Notes under the pieces: generated by a model
Told to the model about the DNA's origin: nothing
Databases searched by the model: none
The model's input: the letters and a program-made list of their open reading frames with translations, nothing else
In this document: piece by piece, positions 11,709-20,664 of the stretch
Layout of the letters: each line of letters begins with the position of its first letter
Numbering within the stretch: the first letter of the stretch is position 1
IMG/VR virus record: IMGVR_UViG_3300025161_000004
Span: 1 to 64,000 of that record
Direction: 5' to 3' (one strand)
From: a virus
DNA length: 64,000 nucleotides
Program-made: the position numbers and the translations under genes

Positions 11709-12023
11709 TCATTTATAATACATAAAAAGCCAATCTATAAAATCATCTAATTTTTCTACATTAAATGATTTACCATTTACATAAATAACTTTAGTCACAT
11801 CTTCATATATCCACCATGTTATATCATCATTAATTAATTGAATATTCTTATCGTTATTTGATATAATATATCCCAACGATTCGATTCTTAACGATGATGA
11901 TTCATCGTTAAATTCAATTAAATCAACACCTAATTTATGTAGGTCATGTATTATTTTATCGTATTTTTTAATTGTAAGTATTGATTTTTTTACAAATTCC
12001 TTTTTTAGCTTTATACTTATCAT
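11709..12023 (-). CDS. hypothetical protein
   Basis: A 104-residue protein with a basic helical N terminus and an acidic C-terminal part (DDITWWIYEDVTKVIYVNGK, then FNVEKLDDFIDWLFMYYK). No family was recognised. Confidence 0.6.
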   Translation of the reverse strand: MISIKLKKEFVKKSILTIKKYDKIIHDLHKLGVDLIEFNDESSSLRIESLGYIISNNDKNIQLINDDITWWIYEDVTKVIYVNGKSFNVEKLDDFIDWLFMYYK

Positions 12024-12052
12024 TTAAAAGGGTTCAGTTATATTAAGTTTAA

Positions 12053-12334
12053 CTATTTAGTTTCACGTTCTGGAGCTCCATTAATTTCAATGCATGCAAC
12101 GCCTAATGCTGTCACTTTTCGTATCATTTCCATAATTTCCCTGTTACCATTAGTACCTTGTCTTTCATCCATAGTTGATGCCAAACTTCTGGCTTTTGAA
12201 AGATACTCCTCCATCCATAGAATAAACGATGATGGATTGTGAATTTCTTTATTCATATCGCCCCAAAGTTTTTCTTGATAGTCTCTTTCGGTATCTATTA
12301 TTCGATACGCTTCTTGTCTTGTCAGTGTTTTCAT
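12053..12334 (-). CDS. conserved phage protein
   Basis: A 93-residue helical protein with the pattern ERDYQEKLWGDMNKEIHNPSSFILWMEEYLSKA and a later IRKVTALGVACIE. Proteins with this arrangement (ERDYQ..KW, a conserved His, then RKV.AL....E) are frequent in phages and have no agreed function. Recognition rests on motif order only. Confidence 0.7.
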   Translation of the reverse strand: MKTLTRQEAYRIIDTERDYQEKLWGDMNKEIHNPSSFILWMEEYLSKARSLASTMDERQGTNGNREIMEMIRKVTALGVACIEINGAPERETK

Positions 12335-12468
12335 AAAATTTATTTTTTTATTTATGGTAATTCAATAATTATAATATCAACACAATTCAAGAGAATTCAT
12401 TTATTCAAATTCAACATAATATGTCTAAAATTTTAACACTCACATTAGTGTGATATTATAATTAGTTA

Positions 12469-13313
12469 GTGAACTACCCACCCACGCCAAAGGCGATGGG
12501 TTAGGCTTCGGAAGTCATCACTCCAAGTAAATAATACCTACGTTTAATGTGAGATATTTTACCAGAACACAAACGAGAAATAGAACCAATGGAAACACTT
12601 AGTTTATCAGCAGCATCAACAACCCCGTCACAAACTAATTTCAAAGATTTTTCTTTGTCGAATATTTCTATTTGCTTTTTGTTCATTTTTCTCCCTTTCA
12701 TTATTCTTCTCATTTTTTCTGAATGTCCTTTTGGCATCTTTTTCCCTTTATTCCAAGATGGTTTCCCTCTATTAGCATCTCCTATTTTCTTTTTTGTTTC
12801 GTCAGATAACTTAAGCCCTTTATGTGACTCTATATTAGCAATTCTTTGCTTTTCTGTATATTTGCCTGTTCTTGATTTAGCAATCTTTTTCTTTGTAAGT
12901 TCTGACATTCTACCTTTGTTTGTGCCTCCTAAGTCTAAATTATACCCATTAGGTGATAAACAATCGTATTTTGATATAAAATCTCTTTCCAGTTCATTAA
13001 GTTTATCAAGACAACTAATGTTGTCAACTAAAATAGTTTTTACAAAGTTATCTTTGCCATATTTTTTCAATGCATTTTTAAAAGCAATTCCGCTTCCAAG
13101 ATATGTATTTCTATCTCTGTCATTTATACTTTGCCCAATATACTTTTTACCATTTACGAGGCAAGTTGTTAAATATATGTATCCTTTCATAGGTACAAAT
13201 ATACTAAAAATTAAGACGAGTTGCTAAATATTTGTTTAAATTTTCAAAATGTAAGCGTAAAGGGGTGTCGCTTACATCACACCCACACTTCGTGATGAGT
13301 GTGTTTTACGCTC
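12469..13313 (-). mobile_element. IS200/IS605-type element carrying only a GIY-YIG endonuclease
   Basis: Read on the minus strand, the left end is GAGCGTAAAAC (13313-13303), a hairpin with a bulged base (13302-13279: ACACTCA, T, CAC, GAA, GTG, TGGGTGT) and GATGTAAGCGACA (13278-13266). The right end is a hairpin directly after the endonuclease stop (12500-12481: CCCA, T, CGCC, TTT, GGCG, TGGG) followed by TGGGTAGTTCAC. The tnpA/tnpB element at 17241-20002 has the same GAGCGTAAAAC-hairpin-GATATAAGCGACA left end and hairpin-TAGTTCAC right end. Subterminal hairpins with a bulge are what TnpA recognises. The 845-bp element has neither tnpA nor tnpB, so it would move in trans. Confidence 0.75.
12501..13190 (-). 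CDS. GIY-YIG homing-type endonuclease
   Basis: A 229-residue GIY-YIG nuclease. The catalytic motif appears as GYIYLTT...KKYIGQS (residues 3-22). The R of the YLGSG region, the conserved E in ELERDFISKY (about 68) and N in NLDLGGT follow. The C-terminal half has repeated NUMOD3-type segments (SELTKKKIAKSRTGK, SDETKKKIGDANRGKPSWNKG) and a helix-turn-helix-like end (DAADKLSVSIGSISRLCSG) for DNA recognition. This is the usual free-standing phage homing-endonuclease design. Its stop codon abuts the element's right-end hairpin. Confidence 0.92.
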   Translation of the reverse strand: MKGYIYLTTCLVNGKKYIGQSINDRDRNTYLGSGIAFKNALKKYGKDNFVKTILVDNISCLDKLNELERDFISKYDCLSPNGYNLDLGGTNKGRMSELTKKKIAKSRTGKYTEKQRIANIESHKGLKLSDETKKKIGDANRGKPSWNKGKKMPKGHSEKMRRIMKGRKMNKKQIEIFDKEKSLKLVCDGVVDAADKLSVSIGSISRLCSGKISHIKRRYYLLGVMTSEA

Positions 13314-13321
13314 GTCCGTAT

Positions 13322-13343
13322 AAAAAAAGGGAGTTAGTAACTC
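13322..13343 (-). terminator. intrinsic terminator
   Basis: On the minus strand GAGTT-ACT-AACTC is followed by CCTTTTTTTA. It overlaps the stop codon of the gene at 13342-13713. The GIY-YIG element is inserted within ten bases beyond it. Confidence 0.65.
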
Positions 13344-13713
13344 ACCTTTTATTTAGTAACACTGATATTTTCTCAACCATCTTCCAACATCTTTCTTTTA
13401 GTATATCAAATCTTTCTGTGTGCTTAGTATAATTTTTCAAAAAGAGTTTATTTGCCTTTTTGGGGTTATTAGGATACTCTAATCTTGATGCCATTTCGTA
13501 CATCTCTCTAACATCCCTCATATCTTCACTTTCGGATAGTTCACCAAGATAAAAGAGGATACACATTACATCTTCGCATATATTTTCATATTCCGATCTA
13601 TTTTTTTGTTTATTATCTAATTTACTAAACCTTTTTTCGTTTTTTCGTATACATTCTTTTATTTTTTCTAATTCTTCACAAATAGTTTTTTCATCATAAG
13701 TCAGGTTTTGCAT
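13342..13713 (-). CDS. hypothetical helical protein
   Basis: A 123-residue, charged and almost entirely helix-prone protein (EKTICEELEKIKECIRKNEK, a central Cys pair, and a C-terminal KERCWKMVEKISVLL). No family was recognised. The gene ends at a terminator and beside the mobile element, which leaves its reading frame intact. Confidence 0.65.
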   Translation of the reverse strand: MQNLTYDEKTICEELEKIKECIRKNEKRFSKLDNKQKNRSEYENICEDVMCILFYLGELSESEDMRDVREMYEMASRLEYPNNPKKANKLFLKNYTKHTERFDILKERCWKMVEKISVLLNKR

Positions 13714-13860
13714 GATAATTTGGGTTTAAAAACAAGGTTAAAATCATTAATATAAGATAGCGAGTTATATCTTAATTATTTAAAAGAACTAATGTAATCA
13801 CATTGGTTCTAATATTTTTACTCAATTAAAGAGTGTTGATTTAACATGTTTTATGATGGT

Positions 13861-15939
13861 CTAAAATTCGAATAATGGGATGCCTATAGTATAAGATTTC
13901 ATTTGATATGTGAAATCTTTTAGTATCTCATCAATATATTCACCAATCATCATTTCATCATATACACAAAGAGAATTATCATCTACATCTTTCCATTTAC
14001 CATGTAAAGTATGATCTCTTTCAATTATAGATGCTAATTTTGTTACTGCTTGCTCTCTTACTACAAGCCTGTTCACAAACTTGTGTGCGTGTTCATCTAA
14101 TTTACTCCACTCATATAGGTCGCAATAATACTTAGGTCTTAACTTGATTCTTTCAAGTTCTTCATGTAATAGTTTTTTTGCTATGTCGTTGTACATATTT
14201 ATTATATTTTTTTCTTTATCGTTAAGGTTGTTTAACGTTGCAATATATTTACTGTTAAATAAACTCGCAAATATTTTTTTAGAAAAATTTAATTCGTGTG
14301 CATCATTTTTAAAACCATAAAAAATATTACCTTTGAAGGTAGTCAGTTCAGATATTTTGATTTTATGATGAAATCTATTACTAGTGAAGTTAGTTGTTAG
14401 AACTGAGATGGTACTATTACTTTTTTTTAGAATTTTTTTTGTTATGTTTTTATTACAAAAAAATTCATCAGGAACTACAATATCATCGTACGCCTTAACA
14501 TGTACTTTTATGATATTTGTTAATTCATTAAAAAGTGCAATTATTTCATTCTCTATTGCAGAGGTTAATGACTTAACATCACAATTAACATGTTTCAAAT
14601 ATGCTATTATAATGTTATCTTTATTACTATAATCATATTTTGGTTTCAAAATATAGAAACATTCATATTTATGTTTCAGGTATGTTTGCTTAATTAGTTT
14701 ACTATTAAAGTTCAGTCCAGTACGGAAAATATTTTCTTTTGTTAGAATATCAAAATATGAACCATTAAAAATTGTCGAATTATTACTGAATTTGTTTGGT
14801 TTTATACCATATAATTTATAGCTATAAAATATGAGAACTAATGATTCATTTTTTATTGTTGATTTTATGTTATTATATGGAAATTTAGTTAGTGAAATTT
14901 TATCTTGATTACTGAATATTTTACCAAGAAATATTGAATTTGTTGGGGTAATTTTTAATTCAAATTGTTTTTGTTTGAATTTCAAATAATCAGTAATGGT
15001 TTTAATATCACCACATTGAGCAACATAAAGATCTATTAATTCTTGTCTAACTTCATGTAGTTTATTCTTTAAAAATTCAATTGTTTCATCGGAATATTCG
15101 ACTGCCTCTCTATTCATCGTAACATTGATATCGCCAATATTTGCTTTAATAGCAACAGGAACTTGCCAGTCAGGTGCGTATAAACCTAACGCATTATAAT
15201 CAATTGGATACGCTACGTGACCCAAACAAATGTGAATATTATCGTAAAGATCACTTCCACGGTATAAAAAGGTATTGCCATGATGAATGGTATAATTGTT
15301 GATATTTGGCATGTGATGGTCAAAACCTTCAAAAATAATATTATCAAAATAGTATAGTTGTTTCTTAATTTCACTCAAAAATCTCCCTAAATCGCCAGAA
15401 GCAATGGTAACTTTAACTTCAGTACCATTTCTTTCGGTGGTTTCGGTTTGTTTAATTAATTCGATTTCTGGTGATGTTTCTCCTGCGTAAATGTTGTAAA
15501 AATACTCGATACCATCAACTCTTGTTTTTACAAAAAATGATTGAGTATCGTATGCCAAGGGAGTTTTAGAACCGATACCAAATGCTCCGAATTGTTCATT
15601 GGTTTGTCGTTTAGTCGATTCAAACAGTACTCCATAAACCTCTTCTATTGTTTGAGGAGACATACCAGTACCCTTATCAATAAATGAAATTGTATATCCA
15701 GTAGACTCTTTATTAAGACGTATTATAATTGGATATTTCACTCCTGCAGCCACATGTGAATCATAGCAATTTGAGGTTAATTCTCTAATAATACTACCAA
15801 TGATGTTCGAATATAGGTTTTTTGTGTATGACCTAAAAATCATCATCTGGGCATTATCACTTAATCGAACTTTGATTTTTCTTTGAGTGTTAATAGATTG
15901 AATATCAGCAGTATTAAGTAAATCAGTTTCTAATTTCAT
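13861..15939 (-). CDS. rIIA: rIIA-like GHKL ATPase
   Basis: A 692-residue protein, close to the 725 residues of T4 rIIA. The N-terminal GHKL ATPase motifs are clear: SIIRELTSNCYDSH (N box, about residues 49-62), FIDKGTGMS (G1, about 89) and FGAFGIGSKTPLAYD (G2, about 118). DINVTMNREAVEYSDET follows as in the family's transducer region. The C-terminal 350 residues are lineage-specific. rIIA proteins are membrane-associated in T4 and protect against abortive exclusion systems. No rIIB partner is present nearby. It is divergent from the ClpP-like gene. Confidence 0.85.
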   Translation of the reverse strand: MKLETDLLNTADIQSINTQRKIKVRLSDNAQMMIFRSYTKNLYSNIIGSIIRELTSNCYDSHVAAGVKYPIIIRLNKESTGYTISFIDKGTGMSPQTIEEVYGVLFESTKRQTNEQFGAFGIGSKTPLAYDTQSFFVKTRVDGIEYFYNIYAGETSPEIELIKQTETTERNGTEVKVTIASGDLGRFLSEIKKQLYYFDNIIFEGFDHHMPNINNYTIHHGNTFLYRGSDLYDNIHICLGHVAYPIDYNALGLYAPDWQVPVAIKANIGDINVTMNREAVEYSDETIEFLKNKLHEVRQELIDLYVAQCGDIKTITDYLKFKQKQFELKITPTNSIFLGKIFSNQDKISLTKFPYNNIKSTIKNESLVLIFYSYKLYGIKPNKFSNNSTIFNGSYFDILTKENIFRTGLNFNSKLIKQTYLKHKYECFYILKPKYDYSNKDNIIIAYLKHVNCDVKSLTSAIENEIIALFNELTNIIKVHVKAYDDIVVPDEFFCNKNITKKILKKSNSTISVLTTNFTSNRFHHKIKISELTTFKGNIFYGFKNDAHELNFSKKIFASLFNSKYIATLNNLNDKEKNIINMYNDIAKKLLHEELERIKLRPKYYCDLYEWSKLDEHAHKFVNRLVVREQAVTKLASIIERDHTLHGKWKDVDDNSLCVYDEMMIGEYIDEILKDFTYQMKSYTIGIPLFEF

Positions 15940-16066
15940 AATATTCTAAAATTATTTTATGTATATATTTTACGTTAAAAATATTGATTTTTTTATCAAA
16001 AATGTGCGTAATTAACATAAAAAACAAATATTTTTTTTATTTAATCGTTTTTAATTTTTAAAAAAA

Positions 16067-16075
16067 AGTATTTAT
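16067..16075 (+). promoter_or_regulatory. AGTATTTAT promoter-like motif
   Basis: AGTATTTAT, ending 19 bases before the ClpP-like start codon, in the divergent region between the rIIA-like and protease genes. Confidence 0.5.
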
Positions 16076-16094
16076 TTGTGGCAAATTTTGACCT

Positions 16095-16832
16095 ATGCCT
16101 AGAAATAAAAAAATTATTCCAGAACCTAATTACAATATTGACCATACATTAAAAGCAAAATCCGAAGATCCATTATATCATTTGCACGAATATGACGTTG
16201 ATTTGAAATCAAATCATATATATTTAATGGGTATTGAAACATACAATCAAGGAAATGGTCTGGAAGGTAGTGAACCTGGGATTGAATATATTATTGCTAA
16301 TAGATTTATACGTAATTTCAATATGCTAATGCGAGTTAATCCAAATGTACCCATAGTAATACATATGAAAACATGTGGTGGTTCTTGGGAAGAAGGGATG
16401 GCTATTTACGATACAATAAAATCATGTCCTTGGTTTGTTACCATTTTAAATTATACTCATGCCAGATCAATGTCATCTATAATATTTCAAGCAGCAAATA
16501 AGCGTGTCATGATGCCTAATAGTTCATTTATGTTTCATGATGGCATTTTCAGCATTCATGGGACTTTAAAACAAGTTAAATCTGCAATTGCTTTCAACAA
16601 ACATGCCGATAAAACCATGCTTGATATATATGCTAATATGATGAATATTACTGGTGAGTTTAAAGGTCAAGGTATTAGTAAAATAAAATCTTGGTTAAGA
16701 AACCAAATGGATAAAAAGGAAGATGTATATTTAACTGCACCAGAAGCAGTTAGACTTGGACTTGCTGATGAAGTGTTTAATTACGACTGGTCAAGTCTTA
16801 CCTCATATAATGAAGAACAAAAGAGTAGGTAG
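16095..16832 (+). CDS. ClpP-like serine protease
   Basis: A 245-residue ClpP/crotonase-fold protease. VIHMKTCGGSWEEGMAIYDTIK carries the oxyanion glycines (about residue 95-115), HARSMSSIIFQAA the catalytic Ser region (about 127), and MFHDG the catalytic His (about 150); an Asp in the following helix would complete the triad. The C terminus has YLTAPEAVRLGLADEV, typical of the family. In phages, ClpP-like enzymes often act as prohead proteases. Here no capsid gene is adjacent, so it could also act on host or phage proteins. An AGTATTTAT motif precedes it. Confidence 0.85.
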   Translation: MPRNKKIIPEPNYNIDHTLKAKSEDPLYHLHEYDVDLKSNHIYLMGIETYNQGNGLEGSEPGIEYIIANRFIRNFNMLMRVNPNVPIVIHMKTCGGSWEEGMAIYDTIKSCPWFVTILNYTHARSMSSIIFQAANKRVMMPNSSFMFHDGIFSIHGTLKQVKSAIAFNKHADKTMLDIYANMMNITGEFKGQGISKIKSWLRNQMDKKEDVYLTAPEAVRLGLADEVFNYDWSSLTSYNEEQKSR

Positions 16833-16833
16833 C

Positions 16834-17022
16834 TTATTCTGGAAGCTCAATTTCCTTCACAAATTTTGTCAATCTTTCAATCTTAAATTTGGATCTTACA
16901 ATAAGATCATGAGGTATATTTTTTTTCTTTGCGAATCGATAACACATTTCTCTCCATTTCATGGGTAGGTTAGTAAATGCGATAGTTTCGGTTAATTCTT
17001 CTTTCATTGATTTTGATTTCAT
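16834..17022 (-). CDS. hypothetical basic protein
   Basis: A 62-residue basic protein (MKSKSMKEELTETIAFTN, then a long helix with WREMCYRFAKKK). The Met at 17022 is chosen because it makes an exact ATGA overlap with the stop of the upstream gene. It converges with the ClpP-like gene, with one base between their ends. Confidence 0.55.
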   Translation of the reverse strand: MKSKSMKEELTETIAFTNLPMKWREMCYRFAKKKNIPHDLIVRSKFKIERLTKFVKEIELPE

Positions 17023-17228
17023 TTCCTTTTGTGGTTTGAATTTGAGCAACTCTCATCATGTGTCATTGTAAAATACGCACCTCTTTTTGCGATAACATAG
17101 AGATGATTATTCCAAATTTTGGATGTGAAAGTAATTTCGTCTGGAGTATTATTCATTGATGTGAATATTACAATTGATAATATCCCTAATAATAGTAGTG
17201 TTAGTTTGTTTTTAAAGATAGTTTTCAT
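17019..17228 (-). CDS. hypothetical protein with signal or membrane segment
   Basis: A 69-residue protein with a hydrophobic N terminus (MKTIFKNKLTLLLLGILSIVIF), then a short polar domain ending in a Cys/His segment (HDESCSNSNHKRK). The Met at 17228 is preferred, because codons upstream of it belong to the left end of the IS605-type element. That element therefore sits about a dozen bases from the start codon and has replaced this gene's own upstream region. Confidence 0.6.
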   Translation of the reverse strand: MKTIFKNKLTLLLLGILSIVIFTSMNNTPDEITFTSKIWNNHLYVIAKRGAYFTMTHDESCSNSNHKRK

Positions 17229-17240
17229 TTTTATATTTTG

Positions 17241-17285
17241 GAGCGTAAAACCCATCGGTCTTTAGCCGATGGGATATAAGCGACA
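17241..17285 (+). repeat. IS605-type left end
   Basis: Left end with subterminal hairpin (8-bp stem, 7-base loop) between GAGCGTAAAA and ATATAAGCGACA. The same flanks occur in the GIY-YIG element at 13266-13313 on the other strand. Confidence 0.75.
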
Positions 17286-17299
17286 AATGGAGTGATGAT

Positions 17300-17710
17300 T
17301 TAACCTTGATTTAATATATATTGACGTATGGTTTCTGGTGAAGCCTCACCAATTGAACAGGCAAAATAACCATCAGACCAAAATGTTTTCTCAACCCAAA
17401 ATTGATTTAGCAAGAACTGACGATGCATACGCCAGATGTGAAACGTTGACTCTTGTTTTAACTTACGAACAATGGAACTGATTGACAACCTTGGAATGTA
17501 TTTAATAAGGAAGTGAATATGATTTACATCAGACTCCATTATCTCAATCTCAAAATCTGACCCATCAGATATGTTTTGAAGAAGTTGCTTCATATCATCA
17601 TTTAATTGACCAACCAGAAGTGGTTTGCGATATTTAACAGCAAAGATGATATGTGCTTTTAAATAGTGTTTTGAGCGATTTGTTGATGTGTAATTTGATT
17701 TTTTTGGCAT
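17300..17710 (-). CDS. tnpA: Y1 transposase TnpA (IS200/IS605)
   Basis: A 136-residue HUH single-strand transposase of full length. YLKAHIIFAVKYRKPLL opens the fold. HIHFLIKY is the metal-binding HUH motif (His-hydrophobic-His, about residue 64-71), and the nucleophilic Tyr lies in IRQYILNQG at the C terminus. TnpA cuts and joins single-stranded DNA at ends with subterminal hairpins such as those found here, and could also mobilise the GIY-YIG element at 12469. The frame is intact. Confidence 0.93.
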   Translation of the reverse strand: MPKKSNYTSTNRSKHYLKAHIIFAVKYRKPLLVGQLNDDMKQLLQNISDGSDFEIEIMESDVNHIHFLIKYIPRLSISSIVRKLKQESTFHIWRMHRQFLLNQFWVEKTFWSDGYFACSIGEASPETIRQYILNQG

Positions 17711-17718
17711 AATTAAGA

Positions 17719-17761
17719 TTTTTTGTAAAAGTTTCCACCAAAAACAAACTTTTACAAAAAA
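17719..17761. promoter_or_regulatory. perfect 16-bp inverted repeat upstream of tnpA
   Basis: TTTTTTGTAAAAGTTT (17719-17734) is the exact reverse complement of AAACTTTTACAAAAAA (17746-17761), with an 11-base loop. It lies 9 bases before the tnpA start. IS200 tnpA messengers are known to carry repressive 5' hairpins, so it may limit transposase translation. That role is inference. Confidence 0.55.
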
Positions 17762-17797
17762 TTCGACTTGAAATGTGGAAAAATCATTTTTTTTCTA

Positions 17798-17807
17798 AGT
17801 ATTTATA
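17798..17807 (+). promoter_or_regulatory. AGTATTTATA promoter-like motif
   Basis: AGTATTTATA in sense orientation 31 bases before the first ART-like gene. The motif is the same as in front of phage structural and lysis genes, which suggests these cargo genes are phage-adapted. Confidence 0.5.
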
Positions 17808-17838
17808 GATATAACATTTCATCTATAATCGTAAAGGA

Positions 17839-18348
17839 GTGGATTTAAAAAAGTACATAAGAAAAATAATCAGAGAAGAGTTCTTGAAAGAAGATGTTGG
17901 TGGTTTGGTATTATACCATGCCTCAAATGAATTGTTTGATAAATTTGAACTTAAGAAAGGGTATAGAACACATCTTTTTTCGGTTGAATTGACCGATTCT
18001 TATGCAATATTTTTAACTCCAGATGTGGAGGCAGCAAAGCAGTTTGGTGAAAAATATCTATATAAATGTAAAATCCATCCAAAGAGAACATTGGATTGGA
18101 GAGAATATTTAGACGTGAGAAGTTATGAGTGGCTTAAAAAGCAATTTGGGAATATCATCCCTTGGAGTGCAAGTGAATATTGGATGCTCTTGGATGATAA
18201 ACGTGTAATTGATTATTTACATCATAGAGGAATAGATTGTGTTATAATTAGTGAGATAGGTGAACACGACCAATTTGATACATATGCAATGCTTAATCCA
18301 AATGATATTGAAATTATTGAGGTGATTGATTTGAAAAAAAAAATTTGA
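17839..18348 (+). CDS. ADP-ribosyltransferase-like protein 1
   Basis: A 169-residue protein with a GTG start. It begins DLKKYIRKIIREEFLKE, a helical leader also common in phage virion and accessory proteins. It then has LVLYHASNELFDKFEL, AIFLTPDVEAAKQFGEKYLY and a C-terminal GIDCVII..YAMLNPNDIEII. YHAS near the start, a Thr/Ser-containing strand and a distal acidic position are the pattern of small ART-fold proteins. It ends in a run of ten A with a stop, and the next gene starts inside that stop, so the two may form one product by frameshift. The target is unknown. Confidence 0.6.
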   Translation: MDLKKYIRKIIREEFLKEDVGGLVLYHASNELFDKFELKKGYRTHLFSVELTDSYAIFLTPDVEAAKQFGEKYLYKCKIHPKRTLDWREYLDVRSYEWLKKQFGNIIPWSASEYWMLLDDKRVIDYLHHRGIDCVIISEIGEHDQFDTYAMLNPNDIEIIEVIDLKKKI

Positions 18349-18830
18349 GTGAAAATCAATCTTCATCAAATCAAGAATATATTGCATATCACTCAAGTAA
18401 TTCAAAAATTGATGAGTTTGATTTTGATAAAATTGAATTAAAACCAAATTCTTCTACAAGAATTGATGGAATATTTTTTAGCAACATCCCACAAACATCT
18501 TGGGGTGATTATATCTATAAAGTAAAATTAATTTCGCAAAATCCAGCAATATTTGATTTAAGTAAAAGTAGATTTGATAGTTTAGGTGTTCAAGAAGCAT
18601 TTGATGCATTATTACGTGGCGATACATCATATATTATTGAAGACTTGGTTGAATATGGTGGTATAGAACAGGAAGATGCTGAAAATTTAGCTGAAAAATG
18701 GAGACGTTCTGATTTGATTGTTATTACAAACCAAGTGTATGGAAAACATGATACTGAATATATTGTGCCAGACCCATATTACAATGGAAAGTCTGCTCAA
18801 ATAATTAATTTGGGTTTAATTGAAAAATAA
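18345..18830 (+). CDS. ADP-ribosyltransferase-like protein 2
   Basis: A 161-residue protein with a TTG start overlapping the previous stop. It has YIAYHSSNSKIDEFDFDKIE, GIFFSNIPQTSWGDYIYKVKL and a C-terminal HDTEYIVPDPYYNGKSAQIINLG. The order YH-S, F-F-S, then Y-V matches the neighbouring gene and ART-fold proteins. With no good start codon of its own, it may be the second domain of one protein joined by -1 slippage on the A run at 18334-18343. The tnpB ATG follows its stop directly, implying co-translation. Confidence 0.55.
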   Translation: MSENQSSSNQEYIAYHSSNSKIDEFDFDKIELKPNSSTRIDGIFFSNIPQTSWGDYIYKVKLISQNPAIFDLSKSRFDSLGVQEAFDALLRGDTSYIIEDLVEYGGIEQEDAENLAEKWRRSDLIVITNQVYGKHDTEYIVPDPYYNGKSAQIINLGLIEK

Positions 18831-19979
18831 ATGTTAAAGGCATATAAATATCGCATATTTCCAACAGAAGAGCAACAAGGTCTTCTTGCCAACATATTTG
18901 GTCAAACCAGATTTGTTTACAATCTTGGGCTGGAAACCAAAATATCTGCTTATGCTGGAAACAAAACAAACATTGATTGCTTTGACCTAATTAAACAGGT
19001 GAAGGAGCTGAAAGATACCGAATGTCCTTGGCTCAAGGAAGCACCATCACAGGCTTTACAAATGGCACTCAGAAACCTTGATAATGCATACACCAACTTC
19101 TTTAAGGGAAAAGGATTTCCAAAGTTTAAGAACAAACATGGAAAACAATCATTTCAGTTGCCACAAGGTGTGTTCTTATCAGAAGATAACAAACAAATAT
19201 TCATTCCAAAGCTTAAATTCGTTGGAATTGATTTGCATAGAGAATTTAAAGGCGATATTAAAACAGTTACTGTAAGCAGAACAGTAACAAACAAATATTT
19301 CGTGTCAATTTTGGTTGACAACAAACAGGAATTACCAAAGAAGAAACCAATAACAGAACAATCTGCTGTTGGGATTGACCTTGGGATAAAAGATTTTGCA
19401 ATAACATCAGATGGAAAGAAATTCGAGAACAAAGATTTCTTTAAATCTACAATGCAAAAATTAAGAGTAGCACAACGCTCTCTCGCAAGAAAGCAAAAGG
19501 GAAGCAATTATTATAAACAACAAAAACTCGTTGTTGCCTTGCTTCATGAAAAGGTGAAGAATCAAAGACAAGATTATCTTCACAAGATAAGTAAATACCT
19601 TGTTGATAATTATGATACTATTTGTCTTGAGGACTTATCTGTGAAGAACATGGTTAAAAACCACTGCCTTGCAAGAGCAATAAGTGATATGGGTTGGAGA
19701 GAATTCAGAACAATGTTGGAATATAAAGCTGAGTGGCAAGGAAAAAATCTATCAGTAATTGGTAGATTCGAGCCATCAAGCAAGACTTGCAATTGTTGTG
19801 GATATATCAACAAAGAATTGACTCTTAATGATAGGGAGTGGACATGCAAAGGTTGTAATACCAAACATGACCGTGATGTTAATGCATCAATAAATATTAA
19901 AAATTTCGGGCTTAGGAACAAGTCCAGCGTTGCTCAAAGTGATGGGATACCATGTGCTTGCAACGTAGAAGCCCATTAG
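18831..19979 (+). CDS. tnpB: RNA-guided nuclease TnpB
   Basis: A 382-residue protein with the complete OrfB/TnpB set: an N-terminal helix-turn-helix region (YKYRIFPTEEQQGLL...QTRFVYNLGL), RuvC motif I GIDLGIKDFA (about residue 183), motif II ICLEDLSVKNM (about 264), a zinc finger CNCCG...CKGC (about 319-341) and motif III HDRDVNASINI. All three catalytic acids and four cysteines are present, so it should be active. It would use an RNA from the element's right end as guide carrier, with guide sequence beyond TAGTTCAC. The stop codon lies within the right-end hairpin. Confidence 0.95.
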   Translation: MLKAYKYRIFPTEEQQGLLANIFGQTRFVYNLGLETKISAYAGNKTNIDCFDLIKQVKELKDTECPWLKEAPSQALQMALRNLDNAYTNFFKGKGFPKFKNKHGKQSFQLPQGVFLSEDNKQIFIPKLKFVGIDLHREFKGDIKTVTVSRTVTNKYFVSILVDNKQELPKKKPITEQSAVGIDLGIKDFAITSDGKKFENKDFFKSTMQKLRVAQRSLARKQKGSNYYKQQKLVVALLHEKVKNQRQDYLHKISKYLVDNYDTICLEDLSVKNMVKNHCLARAISDMGWREFRTMLEYKAEWQGKNLSVIGRFEPSSKTCNCCGYINKELTLNDREWTCKGCNTKHDRDVNASINIKNFGLRNKSSVAQSDGIPCACNVEAH

Positions 19980-20002
19980 TCTTTAGCTAATGGGTAGTTC
20001 AC
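19972..20002 (+). repeat. IS605-type right end
   Basis: A perfect 8-bp hairpin with loop TCTTTAG, followed by TAGTTCAC, the probable cleavage tetranucleotide being TCAC. This segment should also form the 3' scaffold of the TnpB guide RNA. The GIY-YIG element has the same end at 12469-12500. Confidence 0.75.
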
Positions 20003-20043
20003 TGAGTTCATATTATGGTTTTAAGACAACATTAGATACTATC

Positions 20044-20220
20044 TTATTCGCTAGTTTTATCTTTTTTTTGTTTAAATTTTCTACTTTCTAGTTTGTTTTT
20101 TTGTTTCTTTTTATCAAGAACAATCATTGGTTTAACTTTATGGGTAGTTTCTCTCATGACCTTTCTCATCATCTTGAGTCTATCCATATTAGTTATTTTA
20201 TTTTTCTTTGATTTTGTCAT
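20044..20220 (-). CDS. hypothetical Lys-rich small protein
   Basis: A 58-residue, very basic protein (MTKSKKNKITNMDRLKMMRK...QKKDKTSE). Composition resembles the basic protein at 11028, and both are preceded by a TCGTATAATA motif. Nucleic-acid binding is plausible; no domain was recognised. Confidence 0.5.
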   Translation of the reverse strand: MTKSKKNKITNMDRLKMMRKVMRETTHKVKPMIVLDKKKQKNKLESRKFKQKKDKTSE

Positions 20221-20226
20221 ACAGTA

Positions 20227-20236
20227 GATTATACGA
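20227..20236 (-). promoter_or_regulatory. TCGTATAATC promoter-like motif
   Basis: The reverse strand reads TCGTATAATC, 7 bases from the start at 20220. It matches the other accessory-gene motifs except for the last base. Confidence 0.4.
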
Positions 20237-20240
20237 ATTA

Positions 20241-20450
20241 CTAATGTATTTGGTTAGATCTTATGTATTTTTCTCTCAGATTATATATTTCAATAGTTAA
20301 TTTTCTAATTTCTTCATAAAGGTGCTCTAATCCAGAATCGTTATTTTTAATTAATATTGGCACTCTACGCTGAAGCGTCACTTTTAATTCCTCCTTTTCT
20401 TTTATTTGGTTTAATAGTGTGGTTATTTCTTTTTCACTCCTTTTCATCAT
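20241..20450 (-). CDS. hypothetical coiled-coil protein
   Basis: About 70 residues, almost wholly helical with heptad-like spacing (KEITTLLNQIKEKEELKV, then HLYEEIRKLTIEIYNLREKY). The Met at 20450 (or 20447) is preferred to 20477 to shorten the overlap with the upstream gene. The function is unknown. Confidence 0.5.
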   Translation of the reverse strand: MMKRSEKEITTLLNQIKEKEELKVTLQRRVPILIKNNDSGLEHLYEEIRKLTIEIYNLREKYIRSNQIH

Positions 20451-20664
20451 TAACAAATTTAGTTTTTTTATTGACATCCATATTGATGTAATCTAATTTA
20501 GATATTTTTTCACCTTCTCTTGTATCTCTTAAACTACCAACTCCAAAATGAAATTCATCACAAATTATTTTATTTGTAAATGTGTTCATATAAATTATTC
20601 TTCTACCATTATTTTGCCTAATAATGATTCGTTTATAATCATGATAATGATTTACTACAATCAT
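20434..20664 (-). CDS. hypothetical protein
   Basis: A 76-residue protein with a His-rich start (MIVVNHYHDYKRIIIRQ) and a polar C terminus. Its ATG overlaps the stop of the upstream gene, so the two are translationally coupled. It is not recognised. Confidence 0.55.
   Translation of the reverse strand: MIVVNHYHDYKRIIIRQNNGRRIIYMNTFTNKIICDEFHFGVGSLRDTREGEKISKLDYINMDVNKKTKFVNDEKE

Follow-up and report, generated by a model that had tools for sequence, protein, structure and literature searches.

One view of TnpB is that it maintains IS200/IS605 elements in genomes, much like homing endonucleases do for introns and inteins. The guide of TnpB is rewritten by each new flank of the element, and the specificity of a protein nuclease is fixed. 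A comparison of TnpB with homing endonucleases has been drawn (PMC11870625), and in Campylobacter phages both TnpB-only elements and homing endonucleases are known, described separately (PMC2853527). In the open full-text literature, outside which most subscription papers and preprints lie, we found no report of a homing endonuclease in the place of TnpB. Here, we describe an element of a large phage in which, very probably, a GIY-YIG endonuclease gene has been swapped for tnpB within a non-autonomous IS200/IS605-type element that presumably uses TnpA as its vehicle in trans. An earlier, sequence-only reading of this DNA had proposed the pairing and knew of no established description of it; within the literature covered the latter statement stands, and the novelty is provisional.

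Comparison of this element with the described systems revealed several shared and several distinctive features: (i) with TnpB-only IS200/IS605 elements (IS1341 type) it shares the ends, the TTTAT target, the leader, the position and orientation of a single ORF, and the expected dependence on TnpA in trans, whereas its ORF encodes a GIY-YIG endonuclease fused to a TnpB tail, the RuvC nuclease is absent, and the guide-RNA region is present in truncated form at most; (ii) like IStrons, which combine IS605 or IS607 elements with a group I intron, it is a chimera of an insertion sequence and a second selfish element, but here the nuclease replaces TnpB, whereas in IStrons the intron is added; (iii) its protein has the order of GIY-YIG, NUMOD3 and C-terminal domains known from freestanding phage GIY-YIG homing endonucleases of the T4 Seg type (TIGR01453), but the gene is enclosed by transposon ends, occurs in two phages at loci that are unrelated, and has a TnpB-derived C-terminus; (iv) as in the case of TnpB acting as a retention nuclease or gene drive (PMC11870625), a nuclease occupies the same slot and break-driven persistence is possible, but the GIY-YIG specificity is protein-only, has no rewritable guide, and cannot follow the element to new sites likewise; and (v) like miniature or ORF-less IS200/IS605 derivatives, it is non-autonomous, has the same ends, and would be mobilised in trans, differing in that it carries a selected nuclease gene. 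Group A IStrons insert after TTTAT and end in TCAx (TCAG) (PMC4227781), a target and terminus that resemble those of the present family. An Rfam scan of positions 12000-20500 detected no group I intron, and an IStron identity was rejected.

The analyzed stretch (the window) comprises 64,000 nucleotides, positions 1 to 64,000 of the IMG/VR virus record IMGVR_UViG_3300025161_000004, which holds 246,768 bases. Counted from its TTTAT target, the element spans 851 bp on the minus strand (13319-12469; Table 1). The sequence-only reading had placed it at 12469-13313; the end at 12469 held, and the left boundary is shifted to 13319, making the element 6 bases longer. Every sequence feature that this reading had named, namely the ends and the GIY-YIG ORF on the minus strand, is present. 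Along that strand, TTTAT is followed by ACGGACGAGCGTAAAAC, a hairpin, GATGTAAGCGAC, the leader, the ORF, a second hairpin, and TAGTTCAC; within the left end, GAGCGTAAAAC occupies 13313-13303 (minus strand) and precedes the hairpin, after which GATGTAAGCGACA follows. The left-end hairpin has one unpaired T and a predicted stability of -7.4 kcal/mol as DNA, which was equalled in 1 of 200 shuffles. At the right end, the hairpin and TAGTTCAC lie directly 3' of the endonuclease stop codon. Thus, both ends have the subterminal hairpins with conserved foot motifs that characterize the IS200/IS605 group. The composite motifs TTTAT..AGCGTAAAAC..TAAGCGAC and GAAGCC..TAGTTCAC each occur once per element within the window and were absent from 300 windows simulated with a first-order Markov model. 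The octamer TATATTTG at 13196..13203 (minus strand) resembles TAnnTTTG, the -7 promoter element of Bacteroidota, and is a putative promoter element. The GIY-YIG element sits in the T-tract of a putative intrinsic terminator (GGTGAGTTACTAACTCCCTTTTTTTAT; window 13320-13360) of the upstream gene, which encodes a 123-aa protein.

Table 1. Coordinates of the features of the GIY-YIG element and of the neighbouring full IS605-type element in the window
Feature	Position	Strand	Evidence
TTTAT target pentanucleotide, left flank of GIY-YIG element	13320..13324	-	Equivalent position in 43 of 46 complete family elements
Left end of GIY-YIG element: spacer, GCGTAAAAC, hairpin, TAAGCGAC	13267..13319	-	Stem covariation across 46 distinct left ends
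Left end and leader, common to TnpB-only elements	13228..13319	-	Alignment
GIY-YIG homing endonuclease ORF with NUMOD3, 229 aa	12501..13190	-	Profile matches, fold, dN/dS
Right-end block of tnpB 3' origin: C-terminal tail of GIY-YIG ORF, hairpin, TAGTTCAC	12469..12530	-	Alignment
TTTAT target of full IS605-type element	17230..17234	+	
Left end of full IS605-type element	17235..17284	+	
tnpA, Y1 transposase, candidate for trans action on GIY-YIG element	17300..17710	-	PF01797, E=2e-32; NF033573
tnpB, RNA-guided nuclease of full element	18831..19979	+	NF038281, above cut-off
Right end of full IS605-type element	19968..20002	+	

A scan for the left end yielded 75 loci, whose alignment shows GCGTAAAAC, preceded at a distance of a few bases by TTTAT, and then a hairpin and TAAGCGAC; catalogued phage genomes gave no real match to it. 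The 46 complete elements comprise 12 with TnpA and TnpB, 9 with TnpB only, 3 with TnpA only, 19 without a recognised gene, 2 with a GIY-YIG gene (both among the elements preceded by TTTAT), and 1 with an HNH gene. Positions 5-7 of the left-end stem are paired in 93-98% of the distinct left ends, compared with 46-65% after shuffling. An exact empty site was found for one TnpA/TnpB element (L069): in L033, the flanks CTGATTTAT and ACGACGAGTAATT are directly joined, with an 8-base ambiguity of the junction because the L069 left end repeats the right flank. These first 8 left-end bases (ACGACGAG), identical to the first 8 of the right flank, may reflect either coincidence or a trace of recombination. 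Two mini-elements (L055, 2-267; L056, 6349-6639) are internal deletions of TnpB elements that keep the start and the tail, and illustrate how small a presumably still mobile derivative may become; their right ends had suggested an origin from the GIY-YIG element, which was rejected in favor of tnpB deletion remnants. ORFs near the ends at L020, L007, L013 and L004-type loci were discarded as neighbouring phage genes beside lone or decayed ends.

Both parts of the GIY-YIG element that surround the nuclease gene can be traced to TnpB elements. On the left, ~90 bp that comprise the end and the leader can be aligned with those of TnpB-only elements (L064, L279, L285, L289, L290, L202, and a TnpB element of L077), with similarly spaced start codons. 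On the right, the terminal ~60 bp correspond to the tnpB 3' ends of L202, L208, L245 and L025, reading frame included; upstream of this block, no tnpB sequence is left in the element. In a second copy of the element, found in another phage (L077), the GIY-YIG protein is fused in frame to the last ~17 residues of TnpB, and its terminus KHRYYLVKVLTPEAHPIAFGVGG (followed by the stop) can be compared with the TnpB terminus LLTLVKVLTPEAHPIASGVGG of L245. In the window copy, which terminates in RRYYLLGVMTSEA, a stop replaces a TnpB codon and shortens the tail, and PIAFGVGG continues in frame. The kept tnpB frame of the tail and the lack of tnpB upstream of it suggest that, within a TnpB-only element, the gene of a homing endonuclease became joined to the tail of tnpB. 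In contrast to TnpB/OMEGA systems, which pair a RuvC-type TnpB with a right-end guide RNA, the element has no tnpB and only ~60 bp of the 3' region. The earlier proposal that a GIY-YIG nuclease occupies the place of TnpB between IS200/IS605 ends is thus borne out by the shared leader and right end, the L077 copy, and the in-frame TnpB tail.

The nuclease assignment is based on several profile searches, in which the ORF scored above cut-off against GIY-YIG (PF01541, 26 bits), NUMOD3 (35.6 bits), and the NCBIfam model TIGR01453 (71 bits), and matched a PHROG of homing endonucleases (E=6e-39). The best match of the predicted fold (mean pLDDT 69.6) is the I-TevI catalytic domain; no solved structure was found for this protein by sequence. 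The catalytic domain and its key residues are present, with Tyr6, Tyr17, Glu68 and Asn84 (Y6, Y17, E68 and N84) invariant among ten relatives. The dN/dS ratio between the window and L077 genes is 0.145, and 0.08 for the catalytic domain, which indicates that both genes evolved under selection as proteins; by this measure, the pair is under purifying selection. A 212-aa ORF lies antisense to the gene (window 12589-13227, plus strand) and is open in L077 too (220 aa); long antisense ORFs also occur in TnpB elements, so that codon usage probably accounts for it.

Among the viral contigs searched, the closest relative of the nuclease is that of L077, a phage from another metagenome, with 77% protein identity, followed by a runner-up at ~45%; a second viral scan with other peptides found no further close relative. 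GIY-YIG genes flanked by both ends, for which the sequence-only reading had suggested a search, recur: the L077 gene lies between the same ends, and the two copies share 78% DNA identity over window positions 13326 to 12468, i.e. from the target to one base beyond the element. Beyond it, the two records share scattered short translated matches, as well as a TnpB element of L077 that matches the IS605 ends and tnpB of the window. The neighbours differ: the window has a 93-aa gene and the 123-aa gene that adjoins rIIA, and L077 has two other phage genes. Since homology does not extend past the element boundary into the flanks, which are unrelated, the element moved as a unit. TTTAT adjoins both copies, and the two insertion sites have only TTTTTAT in common.

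Precise empty sites, by which the earlier reading had hoped to be supported, were thus recovered for a TnpA/TnpB sister element but not for either GIY-YIG copy. In L307, whose rIIA protein is 65% identical, the upstream gene and terminator occur without the GIY-YIG element, and the ClpP-side region lacks the IS605 element; exact junctions were not obtained because the flanks have diverged too far. In L313, genes 96-98% identical to the neighbours in L077 are present without the element, again giving no exact empty site. A different TnpB element (L313, 1470-3010, reverse complement) lies ~80 bp from the position of the L077 GIY-YIG element, and this intergenic region seems to attract IS200/IS605 insertions.

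The pairing of the gene with these ends is specific and rare. Related phages carrying the gene without the ends had been named as an observation that would speak against it; genes without ends were found only among viral relatives of about 45% identity or less (~50 others checked). The 48 records with or related to the IS family contain 27 GIY-YIG and 24 HNH_3 matches, and only that of L077 lies between ends, so a general habit of nuclease genes sitting in such ends was rejected. The GIY-YIG gene of L025 is near an element but unrelated and outside it, and that of L200 is situated upstream of a right end that lacks a left counterpart. The matches listed from a scan of bacterial genomes contained only distant relatives, so that bacterial copies may exist; plasmids yielded only distant GIY-YIG relatives.

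One more exchange concerns the HNH gene counted above. At L040 (7438-8368, minus strand), a 189-aa HNH/endonuclease VII-like ORF occupies the place of TnpB between the same ends and next to TTTAT; the HNH assignment rests on a PHROG match to endonuclease VII (E=1e-19) and a weak match to Pfam HNH_4. The first ~200 bp match IS605 elements over their left end and the region preceding tnpB, the last ~96-115 bp match the tnpB 3' end, and the nearest relatives of the ORF on viral contigs (32-36% identity) lack the ends. To judge from these alignments, L040 is a separate replacement of TnpB by an unrelated nuclease, and the reading that a nuclease was swapped for TnpB, extended by this case, is well supported at the level of sequence.

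A candidate source of TnpA is at hand for the window copy. The full IS605-type element at 17235-20002, ~4 kb away, contains both tnpA and tnpB, and in the whole virus record no Y1 transposase was found other than that encoded by its tnpA, which lies between end motifs like those of the GIY-YIG element. This full element had been said to have the same ends, which is correct for the end motifs; the stem sequences differ. Its length of 2.76 kb exceeds that of its sisters (~1.78 kb) by ~1 kb, and it contains two extra ORFs of 169 and 161 aa between tnpA and tnpB (window 17839-18830), possibly cargo; these look alike by eye (YHASNELFDKFEL and YHSSNSKIDEFDF) and gave no convincing family match.

We propose that a phage GIY-YIG homing endonuclease gene replaced tnpB in an IS200/IS605-type element. 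Retained would be ~90 bp on the left, comprising end and leader, and ~60 bp on the right, which include the final ~17 codons of tnpB; the remaining tnpB, and with it most of the presumptive guide-RNA region, would have been lost. Since the sole Y1 transposase of the virus is encoded 4 kb away and the end motifs are shared, we infer that the TnpA of the full element would peel the GIY-YIG element out as single-stranded DNA and paste it 3' of TTTAT. Less firmly, the nuclease may give the element a break-driven inheritance advantage in co-infections. In the preferred version, its target would be DNA that lacks the cassette (probably TnpB-type or empty copies related to the element), the ends in common would act as homology arms, and the nuclease would not track every donor site anew in the manner of the TnpB guide. 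Against the swap and its vehicle count the low number of GIY-YIG copies (only two, neither with an exact empty site), the premature stop in the TnpB-derived tail of the window copy, and the lack of tnpA on the records of L077 and L040, both probably fragmentary. Chance resemblance or an assembly artefact is nevertheless extremely improbable, given the null result in the simulated windows, the in-frame TnpB tail, and the recurrence with sharp boundaries in another metagenome, which contradicts an artefact.

That the nuclease serves the element, by cutting either donor sites or TnpB copies, has roughly even chances. The nuclease might be a guide-free substitute for TnpB that cuts the sealed donor site after TnpA excision, so that repair from a sister copy restores the element. 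Its position in the slot and leader of TnpB, the purifying selection, and the report that TnpB cuts the insertion site and prevents loss of the element (PMC11870625) agree with such a role; a fixed specificity, however, serves only sites that share sequence, unless very loose targets are tolerated, and because the two GIY-YIG sites share only TTTTTAT, a function in donor-site retention is hard to square with it and seems unlikely. Somewhat less doubtful is homing into the transposon family, whereby the nuclease would cut TnpB elements and repair across the common left end with leader and the common right end would copy the cassette in, converting them in place. The exchange of the cassette is confined precisely to the stretch from leader to tail, both GIY-bearing records (2/2) also contain TnpB elements with the same ends, and the ends of the L077 copy resemble those of certain TnpB or mini-elements (right 98%, left 94%) more closely than those of the window copy (85% and 82%), although this comparison takes the nearest of many elements over short stretches, so that its p values (0.017 and 0.035) are optimistic. 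The resemblance of the ends to different TnpB elements is a hint of recombination with, or homing into, TnpB copies; on the other side, no allelic pair of TnpB and GIY-YIG elements was found at one site, and independent captures would look alike. A further possibility, plausible but short of probable, is a hitch-hiker: a freestanding phage homing endonuclease that landed in a TnpB element, spreads by TnpA, and serves its own targets elsewhere instead of the transposon. Its relatives are freestanding phage homing endonucleases and the swap is rare (2 of the 46 complete elements), yet leader and tail have been retained precisely and an HNH gene has made a parallel replacement, both of which suggest a slot well suited to nucleases.

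Swaps to a protein-only homing endonuclease (GIY-YIG or HNH) may have occurred more than once in the IS200/IS605 elements of these phages, with the nuclease driving persistence or converting TnpB elements; this joint reading, which includes a hybrid of transposase and homing endonuclease of this kind, is tentative. The exchange of TnpB for GIY-YIG or HNH-like proteins in one slot constitutes a natural experiment on whether such elements need any nuclease or a guided one, and raises the question of how a nuclease with fixed specificity serves an element that changes its site. In addition, it illustrates how a homing gene can acquire a vehicle in the form of a single-strand transposase. Thus, two kinds of selfish DNA-cutting gene appear to be interchangeable within one transposon family.
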